Positions 13,282 through 27,971 of a stretch of 38,360 nt of DNA are shown one piece after another (positions within the stretch are counted from its first letter, which is position 1; every line of letters starts with the position of its first letter). The stretch is taken from positions 1 to 38,360 of the IMG/VR virus record IMGVR_UViG_3300025828_000058. One strand, 5' to 3'. A program made the translations under genes and the position numbers. The DNA is from a virus. Under the pieces are notes generated by a model that was not told where the DNA came from, did no database searches, and saw nothing but the letters and a program-made list of their open reading frames with translations.

Positions 13282-15140
13282 TATCGTTTACCATCGGGTC
13301 GAGCATCAACACGTAAAGTTCCAAATCTCCAATTATCATCTACACTAGAATCACTTAATATTTTTACTGCGATTTGCCTTCCTCTCGCTCTCGTATTTAC
13401 ATCTCTCGTACTAGAAGTAATATCAATTACTCCTGATTCCGTTTGAGTATCAGCAGGAAATTCTCTTGATAATAAATTCATTTTAACTGTTCCTTGTAAG
13501 TTTTTAAAATCAGGAATATATCCTCGAATAAACATGAATTGATCTCCGTCTGCAATATCTACATCTCCACTAGTAAGATATGATTCCATAATCGCACCAT
13601 TTTTAGTTGTCCCTGTTTCGTGTTCATAAATAAAACTACGACCAGGGGATACTCCGTTTAATGTTTGAGTAGTCGCTTCTGTAGAATTATTGTAATACTC
13701 CGTAGCTTGTGGAACGCTAAATACTCCCTGATCTATCCAAGTACTACGATTCATAGTTCCGATATACCATACATTTTCTTGATAATTATAAATAACATAT
13801 CGATCTATTTGACTTGAATTCGCTGAACAATAAAACCAGATAACTTCATTAAATTCATTATTCTCACCCGCATAAATTTGAGGATTTTGAGATGTATTAA
13901 TATTATTAAATACATAAGATTTAACACTACAAGGAAGTTCTTGAATTGAACCTCGATAGACCATAAATCGACCTTCCGACATCCAATAGGCTGTATCATT
14001 AACAACTACTGTAGAATTCATACCCACAGCTCCACAATCTGTTCCTAATAATCGAAAGCCAAAAGTAAAGGGAGGACCGATAAACTGCATACTATGAAGT
14101 CCTAAGTCAGTCCATACTAAGATTTCGTTTCTTGTTTTCTTTGCAGATACAATTTTACTACCTTCACCTAATCTTTGAGAGCCCGCTGTATTTGTTGTTG
14201 TAGGAGTCCATTGTGTAAAATTTTCTTGATCTGACCAGCGAATAAACATCGTGTCTTGAGTACTCGGAGTTCCTATCGTTAATTCCGTTCCAAAACAAAT
14301 TAAATGACGATCAGGAGTAGAAACTAACCCTGTAATAGAAGCGGTAGGAGCATTACTAACTTGAGTCATTCGATTATTGTCTAATCCTGCGGAAGTATCC
14401 CAAACGTAAGTTCCACCGTTCTTTTTCCAACCGTATAAATCTTCACCCGCATTATCGAAACTCCACATTCCCATATCGAGAGTAACGTTAGAAACGGAAC
14501 GAGCAGTTCCCCAACCTTCCGATCCGTAAGTATAAGTTCCCCAACCGTATCCTACTGTTTGAACGTCAGGTTCTACTGTTTCTTCAAATTCCGCATCTCC
14601 ACTTCCTGTCGTTGTAATACCCGCACCTGATTCCGCAGACGGCATTTCAATATAAAAAGCATCTCCGTTAGCAACACCTTGAACTTCAAATTCACCCGTT
14701 TCAAAATCAGAAACAGTATAGGAAGTACTTGCTGTTAGTCCTGATATATTATCAAAGATAACAAAATCACCAGCGCCAGCACCGTGACTATTAATATTAA
14801 CTGTAACATTTGAACTACCATTCGTAGATGTAAATAAACTTGTTAAAGACGTATTAGATTGACGTATCGGGGTAATATCGTAAAGATTTCCACCGTTAAA
14901 TATGTAAACTTTTTTATTTGTGCCAAGTCCGATATATCGACTTCCGTCTAAATCGAACCATGCTTTAATTCCTCGAACAGCTCCGACCATCGCTGAACTT
15001 GCGATACGAAGCCAACCTCCTATCTTTTGAGGAAGTCCGAATCGAAAACGAACTTTATCACAATCTACCCAAGTTCCTTCCGCACCATATTCCGTGTTTT
15101 CTTTATCGATTCCAGGTCTAAATTGAACTTTATTCAGCAT
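13281..15140 (-). CDS. Putative tail hub/nozzle protein (P22 gp10-like beta-propeller candidate)
   Basis: A 619-residue beta-rich protein. The N-terminus FRPGIDKENTEYGAEGTW and DKVRFRFGLPQKIGGW belongs to a family widespread in marine and podovirus-like phages. Repeated strand motifs with Trp, Gly and Tyr follow, such as IKAWFDLDGSRYIGLGTN, DRHLICFGTELTIG, EILVWTDLGLHSMQFIG and VWYIGTMNRSTWIDQG. This pattern is compatible with a beta-propeller like P22 gp10, which lies at the tail hub and seals the packaged DNA. The P22 protein is shorter (about 470 aa). The position between connector/fibre genes and the ejection-protein genes fits. The exact homology needs a profile search. Confidence 0.65.
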   Translation of the reverse strand: MLNKVQFRPGIDKENTEYGAEGTWVDCDKVRFRFGLPQKIGGWLRIASSAMVGAVRGIKAWFDLDGSRYIGLGTNKKVYIFNGGNLYDITPIRQSNTSLTSLFTSTNGSSNVTVNINSHGAGAGDFVIFDNISGLTASTSYTVSDFETGEFEVQGVANGDAFYIEMPSAESGAGITTTGSGDAEFEETVEPDVQTVGYGWGTYTYGSEGWGTARSVSNVTLDMGMWSFDNAGEDLYGWKKNGGTYVWDTSAGLDNNRMTQVSNAPTASITGLVSTPDRHLICFGTELTIGTPSTQDTMFIRWSDQENFTQWTPTTTNTAGSQRLGEGSKIVSAKKTRNEILVWTDLGLHSMQFIGPPFTFGFRLLGTDCGAVGMNSTVVVNDTAYWMSEGRFMVYRGSIQELPCSVKSYVFNNINTSQNPQIYAGENNEFNEVIWFYCSANSSQIDRYVIYNYQENVWYIGTMNRSTWIDQGVFSVPQATEYYNNSTEATTQTLNGVSPGRSFIYEHETGTTKNGAIMESYLTSGDVDIADGDQFMFIRGYIPDFKNLQGTVKMNLLSREFPADTQTESGVIDITSSTRDVNTRARGRQIAVKILSDSSVDDNWRFGTLRVDARPDGKR

Positions 15141-15408
15141 CTTTCTTATTTAATAATTTAGCGGTTGTTACTAAATTAGCTTTCACCATTTCATTTCGAA
15201 AGCTTTCAATAGCGGCCCCTGCTTGATTTGTTTGTCGAGAATTTTCAATCATAAGTAAAGGCATCATCGCCATCGCACAACCGTATTCATCTAATTCTTC
15301 ACCCGTTTGAGGATGCGTTCCTCTTATTTGAATAAACCAAGCACAGTCAAACTTTTTACAAGGTTTAAAGTTATTAAGAGGACAGTTATCTTTAACTTCA
15401 ATTTTCAA
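15130..15408 (-). CDS. Small four-cysteine conserved phage protein
   Basis: A 92-residue protein with a conserved N-terminal cysteine cluster: C9, C17, C22 (CPLNNFKPCKKFDCAWF) and C44 (EYGCAMAMMPLL). The spacing could bind a metal ion or form an Fe-S site. A helical C-terminal half follows (GAAIESFRNEMVKANLVTTA). I recall close relatives as hypothetical proteins in marine podo- and myophages near tail genes. It overlaps the hub gene by 11 bp and follows the collar fibre by 2 bp. The function is unknown. Confidence 0.7.
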   Translation of the reverse strand: MKIEVKDNCPLNNFKPCKKFDCAWFIQIRGTHPQTGEELDEYGCAMAMMPLLMIENSRQTNQAGAAIESFRNEMVKANLVTTAKLLNKKDAE

Positions 15409-15410
15409 TG

Positions 15411-16400
15411 TTAATCTTTCGAAGCGATAATTAAATCGACATATTGAACGTCTAAATTAAAATCATCACTGAATGAGTGAGTGTGAGAACTACCAGCTAA
15501 AGTACCAACGCCGTGACTGTGCGCTTGATCAGAACCACCAGAAGGAATATCTAAATATTCATAACTCGCACCACCACCTGAGGAAGATCCTCTATTTAGT
15601 GTTCCTTTATCTTCCGTTTTCGCTCTTTGAGAAGGTGTTAAAGTATAGCTAGGAAGTTGAGCTTGCGTTAGAACGTGACCTGCAGTGCTTCCTGTAATAG
15701 TTACGGAAGTACCTCCTGATGTACCACTGACAGTTTGAGCTGTATTAAACGCTCCTGAAAAAGTATTACTACCACCCGAACTTGCTGTTCCTGTCACGAC
15801 ACGTAACGCTTTATTATTATGTGTCGTATCTTTCGTCCAACCAGTTGGTGCCGCTGTTTGTTGAAATAACATTTTCGTTCCAGAAGGAAACGGTTGAATC
15901 CCCGTTAAAGATGATCCATCACCTGTATAAGTAGTCGCATTAATCGTATCAGCACTTAACGTTCCTAACGAATTAGCGAAAAGATCGACCATTTCGTTTC
16001 CGTTTTTATTATACATAATCGTATGCGCACCTTGACTTACTGCAACTCCATTTGCTGTATGACCTGTAGGGGCGACAGTTAAAGTATAACTACCGGAAGT
16101 ATTATTATGAAAGATGTATTCTTTTTCTACAGCAGGAACGTAGACATAAATATTCCCTGTTAGTGTTCCTGTAAATTCAATAACTTTATTGGCAGCTTCA
16201 TTAGTCGTTTCAACATCAGGGTCTCGATTCGCTTGACTTAAAGTAACGTTCGTGCTACCAGAAACATTTTTAGTAAGATAGCCTCCTACAGCGGCGTCAA
16301 TAACTTGAAGATTATCATTTGTATTATTTCCCCAAATACCAGCGTTTGCGCCAGCTTCCATAAGTTCTAATTTTAATCGATCTGAATATGTTGATGCCAT
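15411..16400 (-). CDS. Tail fibre/collar-like protein with HxH motifs
   Basis: A 329-residue protein. The N-terminal domain (1-about 150, SDRLKLELMEAGANAGIWGN) is a common phage fibre docking module. A short DTINATTYTGDGSSLTGI linker follows. From residue 171 comes a phage-tail-collar-like domain (FPSGTKMLFQQTAAPTGWTK). Ser/Gly/Thr-rich strands and two HxH motifs, HSH (294-296) and HTH (306-308), lie near the end. HxH pairs bind metal in the receptor-binding tips of T4 gp12 and gp37, so this protein is a strong receptor-binding candidate. It is the last gene of the adhesin island in transcription order. Confidence 0.85.
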   Translation of the reverse strand: MASTYSDRLKLELMEAGANAGIWGNNTNDNLQVIDAAVGGYLTKNVSGSTNVTLSQANRDPDVETTNEAANKVIEFTGTLTGNIYVYVPAVEKEYIFHNNTSGSYTLTVAPTGHTANGVAVSQGAHTIMYNKNGNEMVDLFANSLGTLSADTINATTYTGDGSSLTGIQPFPSGTKMLFQQTAAPTGWTKDTTHNNKALRVVTGTASSGGSNTFSGAFNTAQTVSGTSGGTSVTITGSTAGHVLTQAQLPSYTLTPSQRAKTEDKGTLNRGSSSGGGASYEYLDIPSGGSDQAHSHGVGTLAGSSHTHSFSDDFNLDVQYVDLIIASKD

Positions 16401-16401
16401 T

Positions 16402-17493
16402 TTATGCCGCTATCTCCGTCCATGTGTTTGTACTTGAAGTATCTACATTAGACCAACTACTGGTAACTGATGTATCTACATCAGTCCACACATTATTAGC
16501 ACCTGGTATTTCCTGCCAAATAATAGGTGAACCTAAACTTATATTAGCAGAAAATCCAGAAATTGGAAGAATTTGTTCTGTTGATACTGTAACGTTTCCT
16601 TGAATTAATTGTAGTTCTTGACCTGTCACTGTAGCAAAAGTATTAATTACTACAGAAACACTATTTAACGCACTAGTTGCTTCTTCTCCTGTAACAGGAA
16701 TAACAGCGTTTCCTACTACTGCTTCCTCTCCTAAACTAGTAGTTAATTCTTCACCCGTAATAGAAACTATCGCACTTCCTACTACTGTTACATTTGAAAG
16801 AGTTGAAGTTGCTTCTTCTCCTGTTTCAATAATAACAGCATCTCCGATTACTATTTCATCAGAAAGAGCGGTTGTGGCTTCAACACCTGTAACACTAAAT
16901 ACTTGATTTATCGCAACTGTAACACTAGAAACATTTCCTGTCGCTTCAACCCCTTCTTCAATAACGACAGCATCTCCTACGACAACTTCATCTGATAATG
17001 TAGTTGTCGCTTCTACCCCTGTAACAGAGAATACTATTCCTGTAAATACAGTAACGTTGGATAAAGAAATAGTTGCTTCTTCACCCGTTTCAATAATAAT
17101 CGCATCTCCGACTACAACTTCGTCTGATAATGCTGTTGTAGCTTCCTCTCCTGTTACAGAAACATTCGCATTAGTAATAACTGTTTCATTTCCTAAAGAA
17201 GAAGTTAGTTCTTCTCCTGTTATTATAGCTATTGCTCCTGCTGTAACAACTACGCTATTTAAAGAGGAAGTTAATTCTTGACCAGTAATTACTATAGTAG
17301 CGTTTCCTACTACTATTTCATTTCCTAAAGAAGAAGTTAATTCTTGACCGTTTTGATTAATTACTGTAGATGCAGCTACAGTAACGCTGTTTAATGAAAG
17401 AGTAAGTTCTTGCCCTGTAACGAGAACTGCAACGCTAGTACCTCCTTCTGCTGAAAAAGGTGCTTCAGCGAATGATAACCTAGCTAAATACAT
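16402..17493 (-). CDS. Repeat-built fibre protein, 13 x 22-residue beta repeats
   Basis: A 363-residue protein. After a 25-residue leader, residues 26-311 are exactly 13 tandem units of 22 residues (TGEEATTALSDEVVVGDAII-type consensus, 66 bp each), with no indel between units. Units tend to alternate between an N-S-V/S-N-V form and an S-D-E/G-N-E form, giving a 44-residue super-period. The composition (Val, Ile, Thr, Gly, no Cys) predicts a regular beta structure. The last 40 residues carry four Trp at 10-11 residue spacing (W326, W336, W347, W358) in W-x-x-V/I-D-T-type units. I recall similar repeat proteins in marine phages as structural. It probably forms part of a fibre shaft or a decoration. 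Confidence 0.8.
   Translation of the reverse strand: MYLARLSFAEAPFSAEGGTSVAVLVTGQELTLSLNSVTVAASTVINQNGQELTSSLGNEIVVGNATIVITGQELTSSLNSVVVTAGAIAIITGEELTSSLGNETVITNANVSVTGEEATTALSDEVVVGDAIIIETGEEATISLSNVTVFTGIVFSVTGVEATTTLSDEVVVGDAVVIEEGVEATGNVSSVTVAINQVFSVTGVEATTALSDEIVIGDAVIIETGEEATSTLSNVTVVGSAIVSITGEELTTSLGEEAVVGNAVIPVTGEEATSALNSVSVVINTFATVTGQELQLIQGNVTVSTEQILPISGFSANISLGSPIIWQEIPGANNVWTDVDTSVTSSWSNVDTSSTNTWTEIAA
16561..17418 (-). repeat. 13 tandem 66-bp coding repeats
   Basis: This 858-bp block codes for the 13 x 22-residue repeats of the repeat-built fibre protein. On the plus strand each unit shows a variant of the phrase ending in cttctcctgt or cttgacctgt. Units differ by many synonymous and some nonsynonymous changes, so the array is old or diversifying and not a recent slippage product. 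No unique spacers separate the units, so this is not a CRISPR array. Confidence 0.85.
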
Positions 17494-17511
17494 AATTAGA
17501 TATTAAATGGA

Positions 17512-17682
17512 TTACGCTCCATTATCTACTATAACGCCACCGTTTTCAACCCATTCTAGTATCTCTTGATAGTGTCGGTTTGCTTCATTGTGAGGAACTA
17601 AAAGTATTTTTCCATCATCTAGCACTACTTTATATGAAGTATGCTCTCCTTCTAAATATTGTTTTTCTACACTGTTAATCAT
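17512..17682 (-). CDS. Small fibre-associated protein, paralogue of the 66-aa protein at 23863-24063
   Basis: A 56-codon ORF that fills most of an otherwise empty 185-bp gap. It reads MINSVEKQYLEGEHTSYKVV and ends with NRHYQEILEWVENGG, IVDNGA. The same NRHYQEIL-W-V-G-DNG block occurs in the 66-aa protein encoded right after the other paralogous fibre, so the two are duplicates. Its ATG overlaps the stop of the 366-aa fibre (ATGA). Short acidic proteins of this type following fibre genes resemble tail-fibre assembly chaperones. The exact family is uncertain. Confidence 0.75.
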   Translation of the reverse strand: MINSVEKQYLEGEHTSYKVVLDDGKILLVPHNEANRHYQEILEWVENGGVIVDNGA

Positions 17683-18779
17683 AATTCTGCATCTACCTCT
17701 AAATAATTACTTGATGAACCATCTGGGTTTCTTATATAACCCGGCTCGCCACTTGTAAAACTTCCAGAAAAATTCATAAAGACTTCTTTTTCTGAAACCG
17801 CTGTTGAATTTAATGTTACATTTGTTGTGCCGCTTGGTGTTCTATAGGCTATTGTTCCATTTTGAGTAACGCTAGGACCTGTTCTCATTACAACTGGTAA
17901 AATAGTTGGACAAAATACTTCACTTGAATTTGCAGAGTAAGCCATTCCGTTTGTCATATTACACGAAGTAGGTGCAGTAGAACCAAATATTTGATAATAC
18001 CTCTGACACCTCTGTAAATTCACATCATAAGGTATAAATTCGAAATCCGAGGCGGATGTATCTGCTTCGAGTTGAACGCCTGTAACATTCCAATAACCAC
18101 TTGTTGTTCCAAAGACAGAAGCAGTTTGTCCATATCCTAACTTTGCATTTGAGTAAGAACCCCAAGAAGTATTATCGCTTGATGTAAAATCACTTCCCGC
18201 ATCTGTAATAAACATCACTCTCATACCAGAGCCATTGTCGTTATCAATAACTCCTGTTGTATCTCCCGCAAATGTAATAGTGATTTTTTCCCAAACGCCA
18301 GATGAAGTAGCTGAGTAAGTATTTCCTATAATTCTAGAGTCATCATCTAATAATAAAGATACTGCAAAATTCCCAGTAACATTTGTTTTTAACCAAAAAG
18401 ATAGAGTAACGCTTTCTGCACTAGATGTTCCAAATTTTAATTGCTGTAAATTTTGACCTTCTAGTCTAGTAAAAACCCTAGCATATTCATCTGATGCTAT
18501 TGTTGTTTCTGGCGTTGTTACATTTATTTTCATTGATTTTCCAAAACCTTGACCAGTAGGTACATCTGTGTCTTGATTAAATGTAAATACTCTTTGATCA
18601 TAATTATTTGAATCGTTGTATTGAAATCTATCTACTCCAAAACCATTCGTAGAGGTAACAGCACTACCTCTTTGATGTATGGACATATCCCCGTTGATAA
18701 TCAAATTCTTAAAATTGATCTGTCCCGCAATCTTCGCAGCGGTGATATCTTGGTTCGGTCCTAAGCGGGTGATGGCCAT
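17679..18779 (-). CDS. Tail fibre / receptor-binding protein, paralogue A
   Basis: A 366-residue protein. The N-terminus MAITRLGPNQDITAAKIAG leads into FKNLIINGDMSIHQRG, the start of a carbohydrate-binding-module-like jelly roll common in marine phage fibres. That domain runs to about 240 (SVTLSFWLKTNVTG, WEKITITFAGDTTGV, WNVTGVQLEADTSASDFEF), followed by PYDVNLQRCQRYY and a variable beta-rich C-terminus. The 364-aa protein at 24067-25161 has the same plan (NLIINGDMSI, LTLSFWVRS, TFAGDTSGALDNDNG, PYDVNLQRCQRYF) but a different C-terminus. The first 60 bases are about 55% GC and the body about 33%. It is followed by its small partner ORF with an ATGA overlap. Confidence 0.85.
   Translation of the reverse strand: MAITRLGPNQDITAAKIAGQINFKNLIINGDMSIHQRGSAVTSTNGFGVDRFQYNDSNNYDQRVFTFNQDTDVPTGQGFGKSMKINVTTPETTIASDEYARVFTRLEGQNLQQLKFGTSSAESVTLSFWLKTNVTGNFAVSLLLDDDSRIIGNTYSATSSGVWEKITITFAGDTTGVIDNDNGSGMRVMFITDAGSDFTSSDNTSWGSYSNAKLGYGQTASVFGTTSGYWNVTGVQLEADTSASDFEFIPYDVNLQRCQRYYQIFGSTAPTSCNMTNGMAYSANSSEVFCPTILPVVMRTGPSVTQNGTIAYRTPSGTTNVTLNSTAVSEKEVFMNFSGSFTSGEPGYIRNPDGSSSNYLEVDAEL
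18004..18034. repeat. 31-bp direct repeat, copy 1 (in fibre paralogue A)
   Basis: The stretch beginning tgacacctctgtaaattc and ending cataaggta is identical at 24338-24368 in fibre paralogue B. It codes for the core of the PYDVNLQRCQRY motif. Flanking sequence diverges at once, so exact identity over 31 bp, including synonymous positions, stands out. Confidence 0.9.
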
Positions 18780-19057
18780 TAGATTCCAAACGCCTCTTTA
18801 ATCTCTTCGGTGGTTAAACCGAGTGCTTCTAGCTTTGATTTGGCTGATGCTTTTCTTGCTTCTTTATCAGTAATAGCTTGGTCATAGTCAGCTTGTAACT
18901 GAGCCAATCCGTCAATACATTCTTGTTCTGTTGGTTTTGTTTTTGAACTATCGTGAATAATGAGGTTTGCATAAACTTTGTTTTTTGCATCACTCCACCC
19001 AAACCATTGTCCTGTGTGTAAAGATACTAAATAATCTTCAATGTGTGTTGGTCGCAT
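18779..19057 (-). CDS. Small fibre-assembly-type protein
   Basis: A 92-residue protein. The N-terminal part (YLVSLHTGQWFGWSDAKNKVY) is a small mixed domain. The C-terminal part is a charged helix ending KSKLEALGLTTEEIKEAFGI, a tail shared by many small proteins adjacent to phage fibre genes. It overlaps the stop of the 198-aa C1q-like protein and the start of fibre paralogue A by one base each, which suggests stoichiometric coexpression. The likely role is a fibre assembly chaperone. This is inferred from context and the C-terminal motif. Confidence 0.65.
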   Translation of the reverse strand: MRPTHIEDYLVSLHTGQWFGWSDAKNKVYANLIIHDSSKTKPTEQECIDGLAQLQADYDQAITDKEARKASAKSKLEALGLTTEEIKEAFGI

Positions 19058-19653
19058 TATGTATCTCCTAATCTAATAAAATTCATATGTGTAAATGTTT
19101 GAGAGCTATTTCCCCCCACTTCACCAGCATTACCAGCAATAGCAAATCTTACTTTTACATTACTATCAGTAACATCTAACATTATGGAGATATAACCAGT
19201 TGTCCAAGAATTATTAACTAAATTAATTAAACCATTAGCGTATTCAGTAAAAGTTCCACTATTTGTTTCATCAACCTTTATTTGACAATTTACTTGAGCA
19301 TCTGTGCCCCCACTTCCATAAATTTGAGAAATAAGTTCTATCTTCCAAATTCCTGTTGGTAATGTGAAAACACCAGAACTTTCTGTAATACTTGTACCAA
19401 CACTACCTGATTTTGTATTATCTGCTCTTTCTAAATTTGTAATTGGATCGGCATTACCAGTGAAACTTGTCGACAACCTCCATTGCTCCGCTGAAGTAAT
19501 ACCATTAGTAGTCGCAACACCTGTAAGGGTTGGACTATTTGTGGAAAAATCAACAGTGGTTCCAGCGGCAAAATCAACAGTGGTTCCTGTTTTACCAATA
19601 GTAATGCTTGAACCGTTTCTGTTCTCAATAGAATTTACCTTGATCGTGGACAA
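19057..19653 (-). CDS. Small fibre protein with C1q/TNF-like jelly-roll head
   Basis: A 198-residue protein. The N-terminus MSTIKVNSIENRNGSSITIG, followed by TVDFAAGTTVDFS, is a docking/stalk motif seen on other proteins of this island. The C-terminal about 120 residues show the strand pattern of a C1q-like head: GVFTLPTGIWKIELISQIYG, VNCQIKVDETNSGTF, GYISIMLDVTDSNVKVRFAI, ending FTHMNFIRLGDT. C1q-like heads are trimeric and bind surface ligands. It is a divergent relative of the three tandem C1q-like proteins at 25165-26822. Confidence 0.7.
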   Translation of the reverse strand: MSTIKVNSIENRNGSSITIGKTGTTVDFAAGTTVDFSTNSPTLTGVATTNGITSAEQWRLSTSFTGNADPITNLERADNTKSGSVGTSITESSGVFTLPTGIWKIELISQIYGSGGTDAQVNCQIKVDETNSGTFTEYANGLINLVNNSWTTGYISIMLDVTDSNVKVRFAIAGNAGEVGGNSSQTFTHMNFIRLGDT

Positions 19654-19663
19654 TGATTACTCC

Positions 19664-19999
19664 TTAACTCTTGGGGTTGTCAGCCTTGATCTGATTCACT
19701 CTAGTGATTTCCGCATCTAATCCGTTCTCGATAATATTTTCGATTTGGGATTCGATAGAACCATATAATGCTTTACGAGTGGCAACGACTTGAGCGTTAG
19801 ACTCTTCAGTCGTGGCTGCCGCTTCGAAAGCATTGAGTTGATCAGCAGTAGGCTCGGCAACACTGTCAACGTTCCACTGTGCGATGTAGGGACCTTGACC
19901 ATTAGAATCATCTTGTAATAAAACGTCAGTGGTGAAATCAACCGAACTCACGCCATTATCAGCTAGATACTTCTTAATTTTTGTACTTAGTTGTGCCAT
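19664..19999 (-). CDS. Small fibre-assembly-type protein (XkdW-like pattern)
   Basis: A 111-residue protein. The start MAQLSTKIKKYLADNGVSSV is preceded by AAGGAG. The middle GPYIAQWNVDSVAEPTADQL matches a pattern typical of small phage tail assembly proteins, in which a strand ending in W is followed by a P-T-x-x-x-L helix. The C-terminal half is helical (IESQIENIIENGLDAEITRV). A sampled 60-base stretch is 53% GC, far above the surrounding AT-rich DNA, hinting at a different recent origin. It is located between the LamG-like protein and the C1q-like 198-aa protein and probably assists one of them. Confidence 0.65.
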   Translation of the reverse strand: MAQLSTKIKKYLADNGVSSVDFTTDVLLQDDSNGQGPYIAQWNVDSVAEPTADQLNAFEAAATTEESNAQVVATRKALYGSIESQIENIIENGLDAEITRVNQIKADNPKS

Positions 20000-20034
20000 G
20001 TTTTACTCCTTTATATTTTTTACACTATTTTTCA

Positions 20035-22404
20035 TTATCTTGCTACCACTGGTATTCCTGTTGATGAAACAAAGGGATTTTCGGCAAATGCCATGTAGAT
20101 GTAAGTGCCACCCGATGCGTTAGTATCATTAAAAGTTGATCTTATTTTAAATCCATTTGATAAGTAATCGAGGTCTATATCTTCTGCTTCTACATTTGTT
20201 GCATTTGCATAAACATAATTATCAGTTGGATTTATATATCCTGCTCTAGCTGAATCATGTAATACCCATGCTTGAACAGCATCTGTTCTTTTAATTAAAG
20301 TAAAAGCAGGTTTAAACCCTGTATAGACGAATGTTCCGTCACTGCTTCCATTCCCAGTATACTTACCGAACTTGCTATATCCTTCTATTTCTGCGAAACA
20401 GTAGGCGACTACTGATTTATTATCATAAGCATCACCATAACTTACATGGAATACACTACTATCTAATGTTCCGTTGAAAAAACCAGAAGTCACATCACCA
20501 GATGTTGAATCTAACATAACTCTCTCGCCCTTACCTATACTTTGATGAAAAGTGTACCAAGCAGGGTTTAATACATTATCATCTCTTAACTTAGTAATAA
20601 TCATAGCAGGTGTTTTTCCTAATCCATGACCTATTGTTTGAGAATTTGCAGTCGTTTCTGTCCAAGTCACAATACTAAATCCTGCAGTAGTATTCGCTTG
20701 AACTGTTGAGGTGATACTTCCGTCTGTGTTAGATGATGTACTCCCTGCGTTTGCTTTCCAGTTCCATGATACGTAAGTTGCTCCATTAACATTGATATCG
20801 CCAATAGAACTTGTACCTGTACTAAATCCGTCACTATCTAAAGTAAATCCACTTACTGTATCTTCGGCATCAGTTAAATTTGGATATAATCTTTTTGTTT
20901 GTCCTCTTGAACTATCAAATACATTATGATTGTTTGCATTACTTCTTGATTTAATCCAAGTCCAATCGGGTTGAAATCCAACACCTGTTATAGATAAATC
21001 ACTTCCTGTACCTGTATATAAAACAGTATTAAAATACTGACTTCCGTCATCAATCGTAGGGGATGCTTGTGTACTTAAATTTGAACTATTTAAACTTAAA
21101 AACCCTGTTGGTGGAGCATAATAAAAGTCACCCTCACCATTAGAATCGGTATTATTTTGTCTAGTTGTATTACCTGCAAAAGTGCTATCTTGCCCAAAAT
21201 TAACTACTTGTGACCTACTTGAATCATAACATCTATGACCAAATTGGACTTCTGAATTTGCAGTAAAAGTTCCTGTTGGATTTGTTCCATTAGCAGGGTC
21301 ACCACTAGCATCCCAAGTTCCGTTATTACCAAACCAATATTTACCTGCAACACAATCCACTGCCATCATTACGATATTTCCTGCAGTAGCATCATCATTA
21401 GCTATATATCCATTAATATTATTAGAATAAAATAAATCTTTAGATGTACTGCCTGAAACTGAATACCATTCGGCATACGCTTTAGAAATACCATTAGGAG
21501 TAATCGCAAAGGTACTACCAATAGAACGACCTTCACTACCTGTTCCTGTGCTTTTTAAATTTCCTTCAGATGTGACTTGTTCTGAATTTGCACCACCAAT
21601 ATTTAATCTGTCTAAAGGATTCATAGTACAGAAATTTCTTGTAGGTGTGTCTATCATTTGGTCAGTAGATACTATATTCGTAGGAGTAAAGTTATTACCA
21701 TTACCCGATTGGTCAGCACCTAAACTACCACTATTTTCAAAATCTAAATAAAAACCATTCGTGCCATAAGTTCCTGTGTATTCAATCGGCTTCCATATAC
21801 CACTATCTTCATCAAATTCACCGAAGTCAGTAGGGGATAATGCTTGTCCGTCTATGAAATTGACTTCTGCTAGATAGCCGTCTAAATAATTACCACCACT
21901 AGCTCTTCCTAAATAATTAGAATAACTGCCTTCATTTAAAGGTGATGTATAATTACTATCTACAGTATTTGAAATTGTTAAATCTACTTGAACACCATTA
22001 ACATAAATTATTGCTCTGTCATTAGCAGTTCCATTAGTAGAATCATATTTTAATACAACATGATACCAAGCACCGATATCACGAAAAAGCATCTGCGTAT
22101 CAATTAAAGTATCATAAGAAACAAAATTATCAGATGTTTCTACAAGTCTAATGTAATTTTGTGAACCACTTCCTCTAAAATAAAAACTACTTACATTATT
22201 TCCACTAGCTCCATTAAAAAGTGCTGATGATGTATCTATATTTCCTCTTTTAACCCAACCTGACCAAGTAAATATTTTTGCATCAGTTGGTGAAGATTGA
22301 TTTGTTCGTGAAAAACCTGCTGAATCGTTATCGTTTAATCTGACGGAATTATCTATTGCATATCCCCCTCGAATCGATGTTCCGCCTACTCCTGCGAAAG
22401 GCAT
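20035..22404 (-). CDS. Large lectin-like tail fibre (LamG/concanavalin-type plus further beta domains)
   Basis: At 789 residues this is the largest adhesin in the window. Residues about 1-230 form a LamG/concanavalin-like jelly roll (YAIDNSVRLNDNDSAGFSR, FTWSGWVKRGNID, AWYHVVLKYDSTNGT, GYLAEVNFIDGQAL). Residues about 250-420 include DTPTRNFCTMNPLD and a SPRY-like segment (VDCVAGKYWFGNNGTW). Two repeats of a further beta domain follow, with FNTVLYTGTGSDLSITGVGF at one and FGKYTGNGSSDGTFVYTGF at the other. I recall this architecture in marine phage fibres. It probably binds surface glycans. It precedes the 111-aa assembly-type protein. Confidence 0.8.
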   Translation of the reverse strand: MPFAGVGGTSIRGGYAIDNSVRLNDNDSAGFSRTNQSSPTDAKIFTWSGWVKRGNIDTSSALFNGASGNNVSSFYFRGSGSQNYIRLVETSDNFVSYDTLIDTQMLFRDIGAWYHVVLKYDSTNGTANDRAIIYVNGVQVDLTISNTVDSNYTSPLNEGSYSNYLGRASGGNYLDGYLAEVNFIDGQALSPTDFGEFDEDSGIWKPIEYTGTYGTNGFYLDFENSGSLGADQSGNGNNFTPTNIVSTDQMIDTPTRNFCTMNPLDRLNIGGANSEQVTSEGNLKSTGTGSEGRSIGSTFAITPNGISKAYAEWYSVSGSTSKDLFYSNNINGYIANDDATAGNIVMMAVDCVAGKYWFGNNGTWDASGDPANGTNPTGTFTANSEVQFGHRCYDSSRSQVVNFGQDSTFAGNTTRQNNTDSNGEGDFYYAPPTGFLSLNSSNLSTQASPTIDDGSQYFNTVLYTGTGSDLSITGVGFQPDWTWIKSRSNANNHNVFDSSRGQTKRLYPNLTDAEDTVSGFTLDSDGFSTGTSSIGDINVNGATYVSWNWKANAGSTSSNTDGSITSTVQANTTAGFSIVTWTETTANSQTIGHGLGKTPAMIITKLRDDNVLNPAWYTFHQSIGKGERVMLDSTSGDVTSGFFNGTLDSSVFHVSYGDAYDNKSVVAYCFAEIEGYSKFGKYTGNGSSDGTFVYTGFKPAFTLIKRTDAVQAWVLHDSARAGYINPTDNYVYANATNVEAEDIDLDYLSNGFKIRSTFNDTNASGGTYIYMAFAENPFVSSTGIPVVAR

Positions 22405-22405
22405 C

Positions 22406-23014
22406 TTATAACTCCTCGGGGAAACTTACTAGAGGTCGAGAGACCACTCCGTTTTCATCTTCAGTCCAAGTAAATAAAGTTTTTAAATCTTCGACTGTAC
22501 CACAAGCATTAATCATACTTTCCATTTCATCTGACTTTGCTCTCACTTCACTTCGGTAAGTAGCAACATCTGTTGGAATTGTTTTGGTGTTATCTTCTTG
22601 GTAGCGAATAACATACCAATCGGTCGGTGCAAGTAGTCCACCTGCTTGTGCTTTAATCTTGGCAATCTCTAATTCTTTTAATCCGTATTGTTTAATATCT
22701 CCTACTGCTTTGTCATCTGGTATTTCATCACCTTCAACAAAGAGAACATCATCTAAAGGTTTAGGAGTAGCTGTTCCATACACTCCCACAACAGCACCGT
22801 TGCTAAAGCTATAAGAAACATCTGTATTAATGTAATAGGCTTCGTCTTTTTTATTGGTGTTATCCACCTGTACCTCGTAGATACCGATTGCTTCTCTTTC
22901 ATTGTTACTCCATAAAGTAAAAATAGATTTGGGATATTGATTCTCACCAATCGTAATTCCTTTATTGGAATTAACGATTTTAATAAACTGATTATTTTCT
23001 ACTAAAGCAAACAT
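22406..23014 (-). CDS. Tail fibre assembly-type protein
   Basis: A 202-residue protein. The N-terminal part MFALVENNQFIKIVNSNKGI is a beta domain. The C-terminal region GGLLAPTDWYVIRYQEDNTK, then IPTDVATYRSEVRAKSDEME, is the signature segment of phage tail fibre assembly proteins (the W-Y-V-x-R then I-P-x-x-V-x-x-Y-R pattern). Such proteins fold or attach fibres and are usually absent from the mature virion. It is encoded directly before the 789-aa lectin-like fibre (1-bp gap), its probable client, and overlaps the 128-aa protein by one base. Confidence 0.75.
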   Translation of the reverse strand: MFALVENNQFIKIVNSNKGITIGENQYPKSIFTLWSNNEREAIGIYEVQVDNTNKKDEAYYINTDVSYSFSNGAVVGVYGTATPKPLDDVLFVEGDEIPDDKAVGDIKQYGLKELEIAKIKAQAGGLLAPTDWYVIRYQEDNTKTIPTDVATYRSEVRAKSDEMESMINACGTVEDLKTLFTWTEDENGVVSRPLVSFPEEL

Positions 23015-23400
23015 TAGGCGATTCCTATACTTCTTCCTGCTTCGAGCATATTCGTACCATCACTTCTAAAAATTAATAAATCTTTTCCCCCTGCTGTAGT
23101 TGTCAACGTAGGAGCTGTTGCTCCGTTGAACTTGTAGACAGAATTGAACGTCAGGGTTCGTGAACCGGTGCCATCTTGAATGATGAGAATAGAATAAAAA
23201 CCACCGTCCACCATATTAGTCGGTGCTGCTAAAGTACGATTCCCTCCCAAAGTTACTTGACAAGTTGGATTATCAAAGACATTCCAATTAATCGTAGCAC
23301 CATCAGTTAAGGTGCCTGTGGGAAAATAGACAGCATTATTCATACTAATCGACGTGTCGGTCGAAACACACTGCATTGAATCAACTTTAAGGATACTCAT
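23014..23400 (-). CDS. Small fibre protein with island-type N-terminal signature
   Basis: A 128-residue protein. The N-terminus MSILKVDSMQCVSTDTSISM matches the M-S-x-I-x-V-x-S motif of several proteins of this island. The remaining residues (INWNVFDNPTCQVTLGGNRT, MVDGGFYSILIIQDGTGSRT, FNSVYKFNGATAPTL) form a short beta domain often found at fibre C-termini in marine phages (head or collar pieces). Base composition is GC-rich relative to the window. It is followed by the assembly-type protein. No enzyme motif is present. Confidence 0.7.
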   Translation of the reverse strand: MSILKVDSMQCVSTDTSISMNNAVYFPTGTLTDGATINWNVFDNPTCQVTLGGNRTLAAPTNMVDGGFYSILIIQDGTGSRTLTFNSVYKFNGATAPTLTTTAGGKDLLIFRSDGTNMLEAGRSIGIA

Positions 23401-23406
23401 GGTTGC

Positions 23407-23862
23407 TTATAATATAACGAAAGTGGCACCACTTTCAATTGTAATTGTTCCTGTTACTGAAAAAGGTCCTGCGACCATACCATTCTCATCAGCCTCCACG
23501 GTCACGTTGACGACCGATTGTCGGTTAATGGTATAAAACTGTGATCCTAGAGATTCGGAAGTGACACTATTATTGGTAGGACTACCGATTGATAAGACAT
23601 CTCCGAGCACGACTCCTGAAAAAGTGTCCGTGGCTAGCGGTGCGGACGTAAAGGTAATTTGATTAGAAGAGATCATATAAGCATCTCGAGGGTATTGATA
23701 AATACCTGAAATACTCACAATTAGATTTTGTTCTGTTTGAGGGTACACAGGCTCCGTGCCATTCGTTAAATTAAAAGTAACGGTGCTTCCGTCAAAACTT
23801 GAAGATATATCATCTAAGATAATATATTGTCCTGTTAAGGGTTCTTGTCCGATGTAGGGCAT
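23407..23862 (-). CDS. Fibre adaptor-like protein (YIG family), copy 1
   Basis: A 151-residue protein beginning MPYIGQEPLTGQYIILDDIS then SFDGSTVTFNLTNG. This is the widely shared N-terminal module of marine phage fibre/adaptor proteins, in which short strands are followed by a sheet (NLIVSISGIYQYPRDAYMIS). The C-terminal 40 residues (VNVTVEADENGMVAGPFSVT) form a stalk-like beta stretch ending SGATFVIL. The 147-aa protein at 26819-27262 has the same design and ending (TSTLVII). A sampled 60-base stretch is 52% GC. It probably docks other small fibre proteins to the tail. Confidence 0.7.
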   Translation of the reverse strand: MPYIGQEPLTGQYIILDDISSSFDGSTVTFNLTNGTEPVYPQTEQNLIVSISGIYQYPRDAYMISSNQITFTSAPLATDTFSGVVLGDVLSIGSPTNNSVTSESLGSQFYTINRQSVVNVTVEADENGMVAGPFSVTGTITIESGATFVIL

Positions 23863-24063
23863 TTATTCACCGCCTCCATTATCTGTAATTGTGTTTCCTT
23901 CAGCTACCCATTTGAGTATTTCTTGATAGTGTCTGTTATCATTAGAAATTGGAACTATCATTTCTACTTCGTCTATAATAGCTCTAATTCCTAAAGTGAT
24001 TACTTCTTCTGTTCCGTCTTTATGTGTAATTATTTCTTTTTCATATATTGCTTGTGTAATCAT
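23863..24063 (-). CDS. Small fibre-associated protein, paralogue of the 56-aa protein at 17512-17682
   Basis: A 66-residue protein, MITQAIYEKEIITHKDGTEE at the start and NRHYQEILKWVAEGN, ITDNGGGE at the end. The NRHYQEIL-W-V block is shared with the 56-aa ORF that follows fibre paralogue A, and this gene follows fibre paralogue B by 3 bp. The gene pair order is thus preserved in both cassettes. The likely role is that of a small assembly chaperone for the fibre. That is inference. Confidence 0.75.
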   Translation of the reverse strand: MITQAIYEKEIITHKDGTEEVITLGIRAIIDEVEMIVPISNDNRHYQEILKWVAEGNTITDNGGGE

Positions 24064-24066
24064 TTT

Positions 24067-25161
24067 TTATAACTCCGAGTCTGCACTAAATTTGACATTC
24101 CAATATTTACCTGCACCTGCTGAAAAAACATTTGTACCTTGAACTCTAGCACCTAGTGTTTCGTCTATAGAAGCTACTACTACTGTAACTGAACTACAAC
24201 AATTTTCATTACCACTAATTTTAGTAAGAGTTGGATTGGCTCTTTTTGTAACTTTGAAAGGAACACTTACTCTCATGTCAGTTGCAGTTCCATAAACAGG
24301 ACCTTGATATCCACCTTCAGCAAATTCAAAATATCTTTGACACCTCTGTAAATTCACATCATAAGGTAAGAACTCAAAGTTACTAGCAGATGTACCGACT
24401 TCGAGTTGGACTCCTGTGATCCACCAATCGTCTGTACCACCTGCCAAATCAAAGTTTGTTACATTTCTATCAGTATTATTTCTAGCTTGCCATGAGGTAG
24501 GCACTGATCCTCCAGAATAATTTGAACCACCATCTAACCACCATTCTAATATAAGAGATTGACCATTATCGTTGTCTAACGCTCCCGAAGTGTCTCCAGC
24601 GAATGTAAAAGTTTTCTTTTCCCATGTGTTTGCTGTGTTAATATCATATGTGGCACCAATGATTCTATCATTATCATTATCTCTTAAATTTACTTGTAGA
24701 TTAGTGCCAGTTTTAGATGACCTTACCCAAAATGATAAAGTTAAACTTTCAGCATTTGATGTGCCTTTTTTAAGTGCTTGGCACATTAGTCCTTCTATTC
24801 TTTGCTCAAATGTTACTTGTTCTCCTGCTGCTCCTGGAGATGCTGTTGAAGTGACTAAAGCCTTGAATGCTGTTCTAAATCCTGCGTTGTAGGCGGCACC
24901 ACTAGACAAAGATTCTTGGCTAACTGTGTAGGTGCCATATTCAAAAACTGTTTTGAATCTATCTACCGTGCTGTATGATATTCCACTGTAACTTGATGTG
25001 CTGGTTGACCTCTGTGCAATAGACATATCACCATTGATGATGAGGTTACGGAAGTTGACATCCGCTACTAACTTCTCGGTGGTCACTGCACCATCCGCTA
25101 ATTGTGAAGTGCCCACGGATCCTGTGGCGAATGCTGCGGTGGGTAATGTTGTGAGTGCCAT
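24067..25161 (-). CDS. Tail fibre / receptor-binding protein, paralogue B
   Basis: A 364-residue protein with the same domain plan as the 366-aa protein at 17679-18779. After MALTTLPTAAFATGSVGTSQ and FRNLIINGDMSIAQRS there is a carbohydrate-binding-like jelly roll (SLTLSFWVRSSKTG, TWEKKTFTFAGDTSGALDND, WWITGVQLEVGTSASNFEF), then PYDVNLQRCQRYF and a different C-terminal tip (ending KYWNVKFSADSEL). The N-terminal about 30 residues and the C-terminus differ from paralogue A, while the middle is conserved. The 5' end has a 60-base stretch with 58% GC against about 35% downstream. Confidence 0.85.
   Translation of the reverse strand: MALTTLPTAAFATGSVGTSQLADGAVTTEKLVADVNFRNLIINGDMSIAQRSTSTSSYSGISYSTVDRFKTVFEYGTYTVSQESLSSGAAYNAGFRTAFKALVTSTASPGAAGEQVTFEQRIEGLMCQALKKGTSNAESLTLSFWVRSSKTGTNLQVNLRDNDNDRIIGATYDINTANTWEKKTFTFAGDTSGALDNDNGQSLILEWWLDGGSNYSGGSVPTSWQARNNTDRNVTNFDLAGGTDDWWITGVQLEVGTSASNFEFLPYDVNLQRCQRYFEFAEGGYQGPVYGTATDMRVSVPFKVTKRANPTLTKISGNENCCSSVTVVVASIDETLGARVQGTNVFSAGAGKYWNVKFSADSEL
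24338..24368. repeat. 31-bp direct repeat, copy 2 (in fibre paralogue B)
   Basis: Identical to 18004-18034 in fibre paralogue A and in the same orientation, 6.3 kb apart. Recombination between the copies would delete the interval and fuse the N-terminal part of paralogue B to the C-terminal tip of paralogue A in frame, because both copies code for the same motif in the same reading frame. Confidence 0.9.
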
Positions 25162-25164
25162 GGT

Positions 25165-25731
25165 CTATGCTCCTATAATCCTGTATGCTCCAAAAGCGGT
25201 TCTACTATGTGTTGCATTACCACCAATTCCAGTCGTTCCTGAAGAAATTTTTATAGTAGCATACAACTCTACATAATCGGTAGTTCCATTAAAATCTACA
25301 ACGCCAGATACAGCAAAGGTGTTACTATATCCAGCATAATTATTTCTAAAATCTAAAACTTGAAAAAGTATATCAGAGCCGTTCTTTCGTATTCTTGCAT
25401 TACCATATTGAAGAGTAGAGGCGGTACTATTATCACTCATCCAACTTCCGTAAACAAAATATTTTCCTGCTACTGTTGGTGTAAAACGATAGTTAGTAGA
25501 ATTGTCATAACAATTATCGGTATCATATAATTCACTATTACATTGAACTTTTGTTGTAGTATCATCTGATAAACTTTGAGTAGAACTTAAAAAAGCATGA
25601 AAAGCAGGAGTCATCGCAAGAACACCTGTCGCTAATCCTGAAGCAGGAGTAAAGCTTCCCGCACCATCGGAGGTGATGATTGAGTTATCTCCACCGTCAG
25701 CGAGTATGTTTACTTTGATCTTGCTTGTCAT
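25165..25731 (-). CDS. C1q-like fibre protein 3 of a tandem triplet
   Basis: A 188-residue protein. The docking-like N-terminus MTSKIKVNILADGGDNSIIT and SDGAGSFTPASG is followed by a C1q-like jelly roll: FHAFLSSTQSLSDDTTTKVQ, YRFTPTVAGKYFVYGSW (the P-x-x-A-G-x-Y hallmark), NARIRKNGSDILFQ, TDYVELYATIKISSG, ending AFGAYRIIGA. The two genes just upstream code for proteins of the same plan and length, so this is a tandem family. C1q heads are usually trimeric ligand-binding modules, so receptor binding is likely. Confidence 0.8.
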   Translation of the reverse strand: MTSKIKVNILADGGDNSIITSDGAGSFTPASGLATGVLAMTPAFHAFLSSTQSLSDDTTTKVQCNSELYDTDNCYDNSTNYRFTPTVAGKYFVYGSWMSDNSTASTLQYGNARIRKNGSDILFQVLDFRNNYAGYSNTFAVSGVVDFNGTTDYVELYATIKISSGTTGIGGNATHSRTAFGAYRIIGA

Positions 25732-26250
25732 TTATGCTCCTATTAATCTAAACCCTTGAAAATAAACTTTTTTATCTAATCCGTTATATTCTAAATTACC
25801 ACCACTATCTTGTCTGACATATACATCTACAAAATCATCAACACCATCTAAATGTGTGATAATAGAACCATTGACAGAATTATAATATAATTGAGGACTT
25901 GTGACTTCCATAATTTCTGTTTCATTTTTTCTAATATAGATAACGAAATTTTCTGCATCTGTAGCAGAATTAGCTTTAACTGTAGCAAAAAAATTATAAT
26001 AACCAGCAACTAATGGTGTGTACCGATAAGTCGATGTGTTAAAATAATTTCCTGTATCAAATGTTACACTGTCAAAAGGAACAATAGTTCTTGTACCATT
26101 TGCAGTAGTAAAGTTCGAACTAGCGTAAGCTCTAAAACTAGGAGTATTCTGAGGGAACCCTGAACCAAGAGTCACGGACCCTGAACCGTCACTACTGAGC
26201 AACGTATTATTGCCTGTGTCTTTAATGGTGTTGACTAAGATGTTGCTCAT
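25732..26250 (-). CDS. C1q-like fibre protein 2 of a tandem triplet
   Basis: A 172-residue protein. MSNILVNTIKDTGNNTLLSS with SDGSGSVTLGSG at the N-terminus is followed by a C1q-like head: PSFRAYASSNFTTANGTRTI, YRYTPLVAGYYNFFATV, FVIYIRKNETEIMEV, VDDFVDVYVRQDSGG, ending YFQGFRLIGA. The SSDGSGS segment is shared with the neighbour at 25165-25731 (TSDGAGS). Sequence identity between the copies is low outside the hallmark positions, so the duplication is old or the heads were imported separately. A sampled 60-base stretch is 50% GC at the 5' end and one in the body 27%. Confidence 0.8.
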   Translation of the reverse strand: MSNILVNTIKDTGNNTLLSSDGSGSVTLGSGFPQNTPSFRAYASSNFTTANGTRTIVPFDSVTFDTGNYFNTSTYRYTPLVAGYYNFFATVKANSATDAENFVIYIRKNETEIMEVTSPQLYYNSVNGSIITHLDGVDDFVDVYVRQDSGGNLEYNGLDKKVYFQGFRLIGA

Positions 26251-26822
26251 TATACTCCTATTAATTTAAATCCTGTAAAAAAAGAAGCAATATCTTGAGA
26301 CGCACTACCTCCAACAACGGGATTGTTTGCTCCAAAATTTGCATAAACCTCTATGTATTGTCCTACTGATAAATTAAAAGTTGCAGAAGCAAATATATGT
26401 GAATTTCTTAATTGATTGTCCGCTGTTTGTAATTGATTGGTAATTGATTCTCTATTGCCATTTTTATAAAAAGCTAAACTGTAATATTCTGCTGTTCCAT
26501 TATCAGCCGTACATCTTAACATAGCAGAAAAAAAATATTTACCTGCTTTAGCAGAAGGAACTGTAAATTTTGAATCAGCAAATGCATTATCTGTATCATA
26601 ATACTCATTAGTAAAAGTTACTTTTGTCCAAACACCATCACTTATAGATTGAGTGCTTGTTTTATCTACTTTGAAAGCCGGAGTATTCGCAAGACTACTC
26701 GGTGTCGTAGTTACATTCGGACCAAAAGCAATCGTGGTAGTATTATCTCCACCAATCGTCAACGTACTCGAAGCATTACTGCTTAACGTATCGAGTTGTT
26801 CTACTTCTAAAATACTGGTCAT
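26250..26822 (-). CDS. C1q-like fibre protein 1 of a tandem triplet
   Basis: A 190-residue protein. The N-terminus is MTSILEVEQLDTLSSNASST, LTIGGDNTTTIAFG. The C1q-like head carries PAFKVDKTSTQSISDGVWTK, FTVPSAKAGKYFFSAML (A-G-x-Y hallmark), YSLAFYKNGNRESI, VGQYIEVYANFGANN and ends SFFTGFKLIGV. The termini LIGV, LIGA and IIGA of the three proteins correspond. It overlaps the adaptor-like 147-aa gene by 4 bp and the next C1q gene by one base, so the three heads are made from one message with the adaptor. Confidence 0.8.
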   Translation of the reverse strand: MTSILEVEQLDTLSSNASSTLTIGGDNTTTIAFGPNVTTTPSSLANTPAFKVDKTSTQSISDGVWTKVTFTNEYYDTDNAFADSKFTVPSAKAGKYFFSAMLRCTADNGTAEYYSLAFYKNGNRESITNQLQTADNQLRNSHIFASATFNLSVGQYIEVYANFGANNPVVGGSASQDIASFFTGFKLIGV

Positions 26823-27262
26823 ATGATCACCAAAGTTGAGGTAGCGGGAACTGTAATCGTGTTACCCGGTGCTACGGTTATTGTTCCTACCAATGAGCAA
26901 TTTCTATTGGCAGGTAAAGTTAAATCATTAAAGGTTTGTTGATTGTTTTGAAAAAACTGAGGAGCACACGCTGTGCCTTGCACGGTGCTTGGTGTCGGGC
27001 CAACTGATTCTAAAGTTTGTTGTAAGTAGACCACATAACAAGTATCACTCGCAGAGATATTTCCCCCTAAGTTTAATTGAAGTCCACTATTGGAAATTGT
27101 ATAAGTGTTCGGATTCTGCCTCACCTCATTGACGAACAAAGCCAAATCTTCGGGTACAGTGACTTGACGATCTAAAGTATAAACAGAACCACCATCACCA
27201 GTAATCTGTTGACTGGTTAAACTTGCAAAATTATTACGAGGAGCTGCACCGATATAAGCCAT
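26819..27262 (-). CDS. Fibre adaptor-like protein (YIG family), copy 2
   Basis: A 147-residue protein beginning MAYIGAAPRNNFASLTSQQI, GDGGSVYTLDRQVTVPEDL, LFVNEVRQNPNTYTISNSG. This is the classic N-terminal module of marine phage fibres that docks to the tail (G-G-x-x-Y-x-L, F-V-N-x-V-R-Q). The C-terminal third ends in a beta stretch (CSLVGTITVAPGNTITVPAT) like copy 1 at 23407-23862. It precedes the three C1q-like genes and could act as their common adaptor. Confidence 0.7.
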   Translation of the reverse strand: MAYIGAAPRNNFASLTSQQITGDGGSVYTLDRQVTVPEDLALFVNEVRQNPNTYTISNSGLQLNLGGNISASDTCYVVYLQQTLESVGPTPSTVQGTACAPQFFQNNQQTFNDLTLPANRNCSLVGTITVAPGNTITVPATSTLVII

Positions 27263-27591
27263 TAGCTAACACCATCTATTGAAGAAACATTAATATCGCA
27301 ATCTCCTCCAGATGCTGAACTTTGTGCTTTTATTTTACCAGAAGCTGGTAAAACAACTTTTCCTGATATTATCTCTAAAGAAGAATTTTGCGGTACAGCT
27401 GCATTTTTAACTAAGAATCGTTCACTAGCACCTGTTCCGTCAGGGTCAATTTTAACGGAAACGTTAATTGCAGCACTACCTGTATTAGAACATAATAATC
27501 CTACAATTACTTTTTTATTAGTTGTAGTAAAAATAGTTGTAAGGGTAGCATCTGTTAAGCTTGCCCCATTAAATGTAAAATTATTAGCCAT
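27262..27591 (-). CDS. Small beta-rich virion protein
   Basis: A 109-residue all-beta protein (MANNFTFNGASLTDATLTTI, VIVGLLCSNTGSAAINVSVK, SSLEIISGKVVLPASGKIKA). Similar short proteins occur in marine phage structural modules. The Val/Ser-rich immunoglobulin-like alternation with VKIDPDGTGASERFLVKNA suggests a decoration or fibre-accessory role. Its stop overlaps the start of the adaptor-like gene by one base, and its start overlaps the stop of the 126-aa protein. Confidence 0.6.
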   Translation of the reverse strand: MANNFTFNGASLTDATLTTIFTTTNKKVIVGLLCSNTGSAAINVSVKIDPDGTGASERFLVKNAAVPQNSSLEIISGKVVLPASGKIKAQSSASGGDCDINVSSIDGVS

Positions 27592-27971
27592 TATAAACTT
27601 GCCGCCATTGTAATAGCAAATGCTTCGGAGGCCGCTCCTACAGTGTTGCCATCACTATCAATGTATACTGTTTTTGAAGCAGGTAAAGTACAAAATACAG
27701 ATTTCGTACCAGCACTAAAATTAACAGCATTATCTGAATTAGAACTAGTTAATATTGTATCTCTCGATAAAGTATCAGGAGTAGCATCAGTAACTGTTCC
27801 GATTCCTACTTCCCATTCAGAACCTCCTACTATTGCATAGTAAGTATTATTACTGTTGCCTATTCCTGATACAAAAGATTCGAAACCATCAACTGCGCCA
27901 TCTAAAGAAATGGTACCTGTACCAGTTGTAGTTGTTTCTTCCTTTACTCTATCGTTTAATACAAACGCCAT
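27591..27971 (-). CDS. Conserved virion structural protein
   Basis: A 126-residue protein from a family common in phage structural modules. The diagnostic pattern is MAFVLNDRVKEETTTTGTGT, then NNTYYAIVGGSEWEVGIGTV, TPDTLSRDTILTSSN and FSAGTKSVFCTLPASKTVYI. It is all-beta, with no membrane segment and no enzymatic motif. Usually found near tail fibre or connector genes, it is thought to be a minor tail or head-tail component. It is linked to its neighbours on both sides by one-base overlaps. Confidence 0.7.
   Translation of the reverse strand: MAFVLNDRVKEETTTTGTGTISLDGAVDGFESFVSGIGNSNNTYYAIVGGSEWEVGIGTVTDATPDTLSRDTILTSSNSDNAVNFSAGTKSVFCTLPASKTVYIDSDGNTVGAASEAFAITMAASL

Follow-up and report, generated by a model that had tools for sequence, protein, structure and literature searches.

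Fibre-type heads and their small partner genes in a variable, probable host-recognition island of an HTVC023P-like podovirus

Tail fibres determine which bacteria a phage infects, and most of the fibre-associated genes of abundant ocean phages are unnamed. Variable regions that carry such genes have been described before. The metaviromic islands of marine phages (Mizuno et al. 2014, PMC3909814) include C1q, fibre, carbohydrate-binding, XkdW and fibre-assembly genes in the sections of that paper drawn on here, and variable host-recognition islands are also present in cryoconite phages (PMC7468147). The locus considered here is positions 15,411 to 27,591 of the IMG/VR virus record IMGVR_UViG_3300025828_000058, a fragment of 38,360 bases (the window; its genes are named by w and their lower coordinate) in which the structural genes run leftward. 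The likeness to the metaviromic islands lies in host-recognition regions that vary between near relatives; here, too, the flanks are conserved, the gene content is replaced in close relatives and the variable part holds recognition-type genes. The difference is that those sections report regions and gene names, and neither class-specific pairing nor a tip-plus-partner unit is found in them.

Several individual phages are also comparable. Puniceispirillum phage HMO-2011 has, at gp28–gp41, several small genes in succession annotated as "putative tail fiber", among which are a C1q protein and a CBM fibre followed by a 58-amino-acid (aa) gene, but it belongs to another lineage with another gene set, and its partner is annotated as hypothetical. 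With T-even gp37/gp38, as with Tfa, a small gene stands directly after the fibre gene and is tied to the C-terminal tip of the fibre, and work by Tetart from 1998 is said to have found that T-even fibres are swapped by recombination at conserved motifs. The small partner in the window likewise adjoins its fibre and is exchanged together with the tip; it differs in its length of 49–66 aa, in having no Pfam match and in being one of several unrelated partner classes per genome. HTVC023P, HTVC027P, CRP-901 and CRP-902 have homologous portal, hub and connector genes with variable genes in the same interval, although their fibre genes there are fewer and larger and HTVC023P itself has 2OG-Fe(II) oxygenase genes. 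The tail fibre gp28 of cyanophage P-SCSP1u (PDB 8i4m; PMC10575957) contains a YIG-type domain inside a single fibre of 1079 aa, whereas in the window this domain is a separate protein of 151 aa. A first-pass annotation had placed the island far from a podovirus norm of one to three fibre genes, a contrast that is not supported in that form, as cultured HMO-2011 and HTVC115P have comparable rows and metaviromic islands are published. Within the literature checked, variable islands are familiar, and what looks new is the strict class-specific pairing and the exchange unit of tip plus partner.

The island and its variation among relatives

The interval comprises 19 leftward open reading frames (ORFs), all intact and tightly packed in a single chain, between the connector genes on the right, with the major capsid protein and portal genes, and a P22-type hub (phrog_3287) on the left. 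It contains two YIG adaptors, four C1q-like heads, two paralogous CBM-type fibres, a DUF7483 fibre of 789 aa, a shaft of 22-residue repeats, an HxH collar fibre and small proteins. Every ORF named in the first-pass annotation is present in this chain, and its list of families is borne out by PHROG, Pfam, profile and fold evidence; its "about ten fibre-type proteins" did describe an array, with the count now at about nine strictly fibre-like heads. Portal, hub and connector genes are homologous to those of HTVC023P-type phages, portal and hub being about 36–48% identical to the pelagiphages HTVC023P/HTVC027P and the roseophages CRP-901/902, and most of the HTVC023P-type replication module is absent from the fragment among the ORFs scanned. 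The interval is best read as the module by which an HTVC023P-like podovirus recognises its host. Taken together, the gene order, two head-type folds, the variation, the pairing and the exchange of tip with partner make it probable that receptor-binding cassettes mounted on the tail form a hypervariable array here, held between fixed ends, and that they have assembly partners specific to their class.

The variation was followed in related contigs gathered by the hub and by a connector gene, in which the interval from connector to hub was compared. The hub, the connectors, the first ~100 aa of the anchor, the repeat shaft, the HxH fibre and a 92-aa protein recur, and the ~10 kb between these fixed ends is the part that is replaced. 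The anchor is 60–80% identical over its first ~100–120 aa and changes thereafter, giving versions of 126, 149, 152, 264 and 504 aa; the slot after it is also filled by proteins of 108–118 aa in L132, G005, L249 and L251. Homologues of the shaft w16402 vary from 298 to 527 aa, and the HxH fibre w15411 is modular, its N-domain (residues 1–150/167) being kept with other heads and its head (168–329) being found on other phages. The distance from connector to hub is 4.2–12.8 kb among contigs with both, the window being the longest. In the closest full relative, L130, the hub is 95% identical, and only four of 12 island genes, all of them boundary genes, are common to both; three large fibres (572, 739 and 613 aa) take the place of the small heads. 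Even L003, the same strain by its identical hub (100%) and 97–100% identical from the w17679 tip through the hub, has another fibre 2 body and another head and small gene in the w19057/w18779 slot. A search for relatives with w19057 returned this strain only. The 197 ORFs of 18 islands group into 97 families, of which 61 occur in one island only. The replaced middle seen in L130, in L003 and in this family count excludes an invariant gene set, the outcome that the first-pass annotation had named as counting against its reading. C1q-like head sets differ between relatives, L124 and L125 have islands of just six genes, and large arrays are found again in other lineages and in isolates.

The proposed "stock of exchangeable heads" therefore stands as exchange between phages, but not as switching within a genome, which was rejected on the ground that inverted repeats of at least 26 nucleotides (nt) were not found within the island. 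Direct repeats there are mainly those of the shaft and the CQRYY region common to both CBM fibres. A promoter scan gave matches no more frequent than in shuffled sequence and was uninformative.

Three further arrangements were seen beside these. The Cys-rich 92-aa protein next to the hub (15130–15408), whose family is present in eight of the 18 islands at 51–99% identity, has spaced cysteines (CPLNNFKPCKKFDC...GCA), has no PHROG match and is possibly metal-binding. In L128 and L131 (6172–12113 and 4629–11310, reverse complement coordinates) the shaft and HxH genes directly follow the connectors, and other genes of ~170–380 aa precede the hub, so that the variable part lies on the opposite side of the fixed fibre genes. 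In HTVC023P-like L133 (8566–12997, reverse complement) the same interval is a run of ~200-aa genes that lack the N-terminal unit described below.

Heads, partners and the unit of exchange

The identities of adaptors, heads and fibres rest on matches of several kinds. Both YIG adaptors belong to a tail-fibre PHROG, and w23407 aligns with the YIG-type domain of the solved gp28. Among the C1q-like heads, w25732 passes the curated Pfam cut-off and w25165, w26250 and w19057 join by profile or fold only; w25165 and w26250 are paralogues of w25732, with 27–34% identity among these heads, and w19057 was assigned by profile comparison. Searches of PDB sequences with w25165 and with a CBM fibre profile gave nothing useful, and fold comparison was required. 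The AlphaFold2 (AF2) monomer model of w25165 (predicted local distance difference test, pLDDT, 86) matches the C1q jelly-roll of C1QL1-3 with a template-modelling (TM) score of 0.84 on the target; among fold matches the portal-tail complex of cyanophage A4 ranks first, and the A-1(L) short tail fibre is also matched. The YIG domain in gp28 and the match of w25165 to the A4 complex favour a location on the tail. Fibres w17679 and w24067 are 43% identical over 255 aa, and a body model (pLDDT 77) matches a CBM4/11/22-like beta-sandwich (E ~1e-5, TM 0.5–0.6 on the target), which makes them CBM-type fibres and, as modelled, putative carbohydrate binders. Each has a separate C-terminal tip after a conserved LQRCQRYY motif. 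The 789-aa protein combines DUF7483 with PHROG tail-fibre matches, and its LamG-like N-terminus is based on the annotation of relatives only. The repeats of w16402 have a period of 22/44 with 13 clear units.

Searching with fibre w24067 yielded 78 loci in which the CBM fibre is followed, mostly at a gap of at most 3 nt, by an ORF of 49–66 aa with the motif NxxYQExLxW. This partner stands directly after the fibre in 56 of 62 non-redundant copies, against none of 441 other ORFs at the same loci, and 92 of 93 ORFs of the partner family come after a CBM fibre. Its N-terminal half is variable and its C-terminal motif constant. The pair is also found in the cultured phages HMO-2011, HTVC115P, Venkman (twice) and HTVC100P, and the 56/66-aa family corresponds to PHROG 20370, of unknown function. 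When seven head classes were set against nine partner classes, 141 of 150 partnered heads had the partner of their own class, a table that is partly circular, as the classes were set by C-terminal patterns first noticed in about 20 islands. Because these classes came from part of the same data, a separate test was made on 80 non-redundant loci found solely with the 92-aa w18779, and an RLGDT-type C1q head lay upstream of its homologue in 71 of them. The 128-aa w23014 and the 202-aa Tfa-like w22406 match a recurring pair, and the same C-terminal type precedes Tfa-like genes elsewhere; a w22406-type homologue in phage Melnitz is annotated as a tail assembly chaperone. The "matching small chaperones" of the first-pass annotation were largely upheld as a pairing, with class-matched heads for the proteins of 202, 92, 66 and 56 aa and none for the XkdW-like protein of 111 aa. 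XkdW was considered as partner of the 789-aa fibre and rejected, as XkdW comes after none of 84 homologues of that fibre, many of which have a Tfa-like protein encoded next instead. The three C1q heads between w25165 and 26822 have no partner gene. By analogy with the described fibre systems, the small proteins are most likely class-specific assembly partners of their heads, which would aid folding and trimerisation of the tip or cap it.

Tip and partner also travel together. Between the window and L137, nucleotide identity is 90–98% (80–87% near the end) only over the fibre 1 tip and the whole 66-aa gene, falling to ~60% on both sides, where the neighbouring genes differ, and the same borders are seen between L194 and L160 and between L194 and L210. 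Co-transfer of adjacent genes is expected from linkage alone, and the informative point is the position of the downstream border, which in all three recombinants is no more than about one 60-nt block away from the stop codon of the partner gene. No pair with tips at least 60% identical had unlike partners. At the CQRYY junction, a 104-nt stretch (17991–18094 and 24325–24428) is 76% identical between the two fibres, and tips might be exchanged there within a single genome.

A ~38-residue N-terminal unit, or tag (roughly MSKLKVNxIxxxSGTxLTLGxSGDTxxxxSG), starts four heads of the window and, in all, 48 island proteins of 128 to 739 aa, a number that includes one small 75-aa family that probably does not belong. 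The tag is at least 60% identical in 33 pairs whose heads are less than 25% identical. This is the pattern that a common dock would have, and the tag probably serves in docking or in trimer nucleation of heads.

How the array may work and what else could explain it

The model adds inferred elements, namely virion location, tag docking, chaperone action, receptor binding and simultaneous display. The fixed ends, which are the anchor with the YIG-type adaptors on one side and the shaft, the HxH fibre and the 92-aa protein by the hub on the other, would probably be fastened to the tail. The small heads of trimer type in the middle (four C1q-like, two CBM-type, one DUF7483 and one short) are probably gained, dropped or swapped whole through recombination with other phages, which at conserved spots such as the anchor, the tag, the CQRYY motif and the gene junctions would exchange whole cassettes or tips. 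Heads would most likely trimerise, the tip in several classes being helped to fold or capped by the partner encoded downstream, much as with gp38 or Tfa, dock near the tail via their N-terminal unit or the adaptor proteins, and bind surface sugars or proteins. Such an arrangement points to competition by many small ligands, not by one or two long fibres, in this group of marine podoviruses, and the head-partner rule and the bordered exchange unit predict the fibre to which a small gene belongs, the pieces that travel as one and the proteins worth testing jointly.

Some results pull the other way. Recombinants with both borders number only three, and a global, Mantel-style correlation of tip, partner and body identity over 55 pairs gave no signal, most pairs being too distant, so that support comes from the close pairs and from adjacency. 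Virion proteomics or a structure for this phage group was not found in the search. Some proteins of L251 and L239 carry tandem copies of the tag, which could accordingly be a trimer-forming shaft repeat instead of a dock. In a bolder and rather unlikely version of the array, the common unit would plug many unrelated heads into the same tail sites, with at least eight ligands mixed per virion and, for several head classes, dedicated partners that recognise their own tip only; the ligand mixture would then vary between particles that share one genome. The 49–66 aa family matches nothing in Pfam or NCBIfam, so that the word chaperone rests on position and analogy, and a structural tip subunit fits equally. 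The small proteins would in that case remain attached as adhesins or caps and themselves form the contact, as gp38 does in T2-like phages. Movement with the tip domain only, the variable N-terminal half beside a constant motif and the one-to-one pairing would all suit this alternative, but the partner is short and bears no known adhesin motif, and the 202-aa type matches a fibre-assembly PHROG and has the chaperone-annotated homologue in Melnitz. It is a possible but doubtful explanation, if the strongest of the competitors.

That the cassettes are tail-mounted and in use at all may also be questioned. The 61 single-island families and the six-gene islands of L124 and L125 could be read as a graveyard or transit zone, in which most cassettes are recent arrivals, few are used and the others are quickly lost; yet every ORF is intact in a tight single chain, pairing and motifs are kept across great divergence, and other lineages and isolates have large arrays as well, all of which renders this account improbable. 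Less probable again is that some small heads (C1q and short tagged) decorate the capsid or the head-tail junction rather than bind receptors from the tail. Their genes do adjoin the connectors, and some PHROG labels are virion structural or head and packaging, but most labels are tail fibre, a tail fibre of solved structure includes the YIG domain and the fold matches include the A4 portal-tail complex, in first place, and the A-1(L) fibre. C1q A/B/C chains form mixed trimers, and three adjacent, partnerless C1q-like genes of similar length might similarly yield one fibre; given their low mutual identity (27–34%) and the different sets in relatives, this is very improbable. Tail-mounted cassettes with class-specific partners are the reading retained.

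Feature coordinates and observations outside the island

Table 1. Features of the island and its two edges in the window (positions on the 38,360-base record; all on the minus strand)
Feature	Coordinates	Strand	Basis
126-aa N-terminal anchor domain, fixed right end of the island	27591..27971	-	tail fibre N-terminus in isolates
109-aa small beta protein directly after the anchor	27262..27591	-	PHROG 1276 (unknown function)
YIG adaptor 1, 147 aa	26819..27262	-	PHROG 18673 tail fibre
C1q-like head, 190 aa, without partner gene	26250..26822	-	34% to w25165; profile alignment
C1q-like head, 172 aa, without partner gene	25732..26250	-	Pfam C1q above cut-off; N-terminal tag
C1q-like head, 188 aa, without partner gene	25165..25731	-	AF2 model pLDDT 86; C1q and cyanophage tail fold matches; tag
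CBM-type fibre 1, 364 aa; tip ~24067-24400	24067..25161	-	PHROG 4492 tail fibre
66-aa class-specific partner of fibre 1	23863..24063	-	adjacency rule; tip co-exchange; PHROG 20370
YIG adaptor 2, 151 aa	23407..23862	-	PHROG 18673 tail fibre; PDB 8i4m gp28, E 5e-6
128-aa tagged short head, C-terminus GTNMLEAGRSIGIA	23014..23400	-	tag E 1e-10; weak PHROG tail-fibre matches
202-aa Tfa-like fibre assembly protein, partner of w23014	22406..23014	-	PHROG 4912 tail fibre assembly
789-aa DUF7483 fibre	20035..22404	-	Pfam E 1e-112; PHROG virion structural protein / tail fibre
XkdW-like protein, 111 aa	19664..19999	-	Pfam XkdW 1.7e-12
Tagged C1q-like head, RLGDT subtype, 198 aa	19057..19653	-	hhalign 99.5% to C1q set; tag
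92-aa class-specific partner of w19057	18779..19057	-	homologues mostly follow RLGDT head
CBM-type fibre 2, 366 aa; tip ~17679-17993	17679..18779	-	PHROG 4492 tail fibre; AF2 model, CBM fold match
56-aa class-specific partner of fibre 2	17512..17682	-	adjacency rule
363-aa shaft of 22-residue repeats, fixed left part	16402..17493	-	repeat period; homologues 298-527 aa
329-aa fibre, conserved N-domain and HxH collar head	15411..16400	-	PHROG
92-aa Cys-rich conserved protein between island and hub	15130..15408	-	conserved in relatives

Three other genes of the window deserve mention. A glycosyltransferase-like gene lies inside the connector region (29056–29841); it is intact elsewhere, and its counterpart is split in L125 (1972–2760, reverse complement) and in L104 (5299–6081), by decay or sequencing error. 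Peptidase_S74 is an intramolecular chaperone usual in tail fibres, and a 370-aa protein beside a GNAT acetyltransferase gene (11482–12594) ends in a C-terminal domain of this kind. At the window's end, positions 1–639 encode a TOTE-type archaeo-eukaryotic primase domain (Pfam PF22548), cut by that end, beside a Pam3 gp34-like protein.

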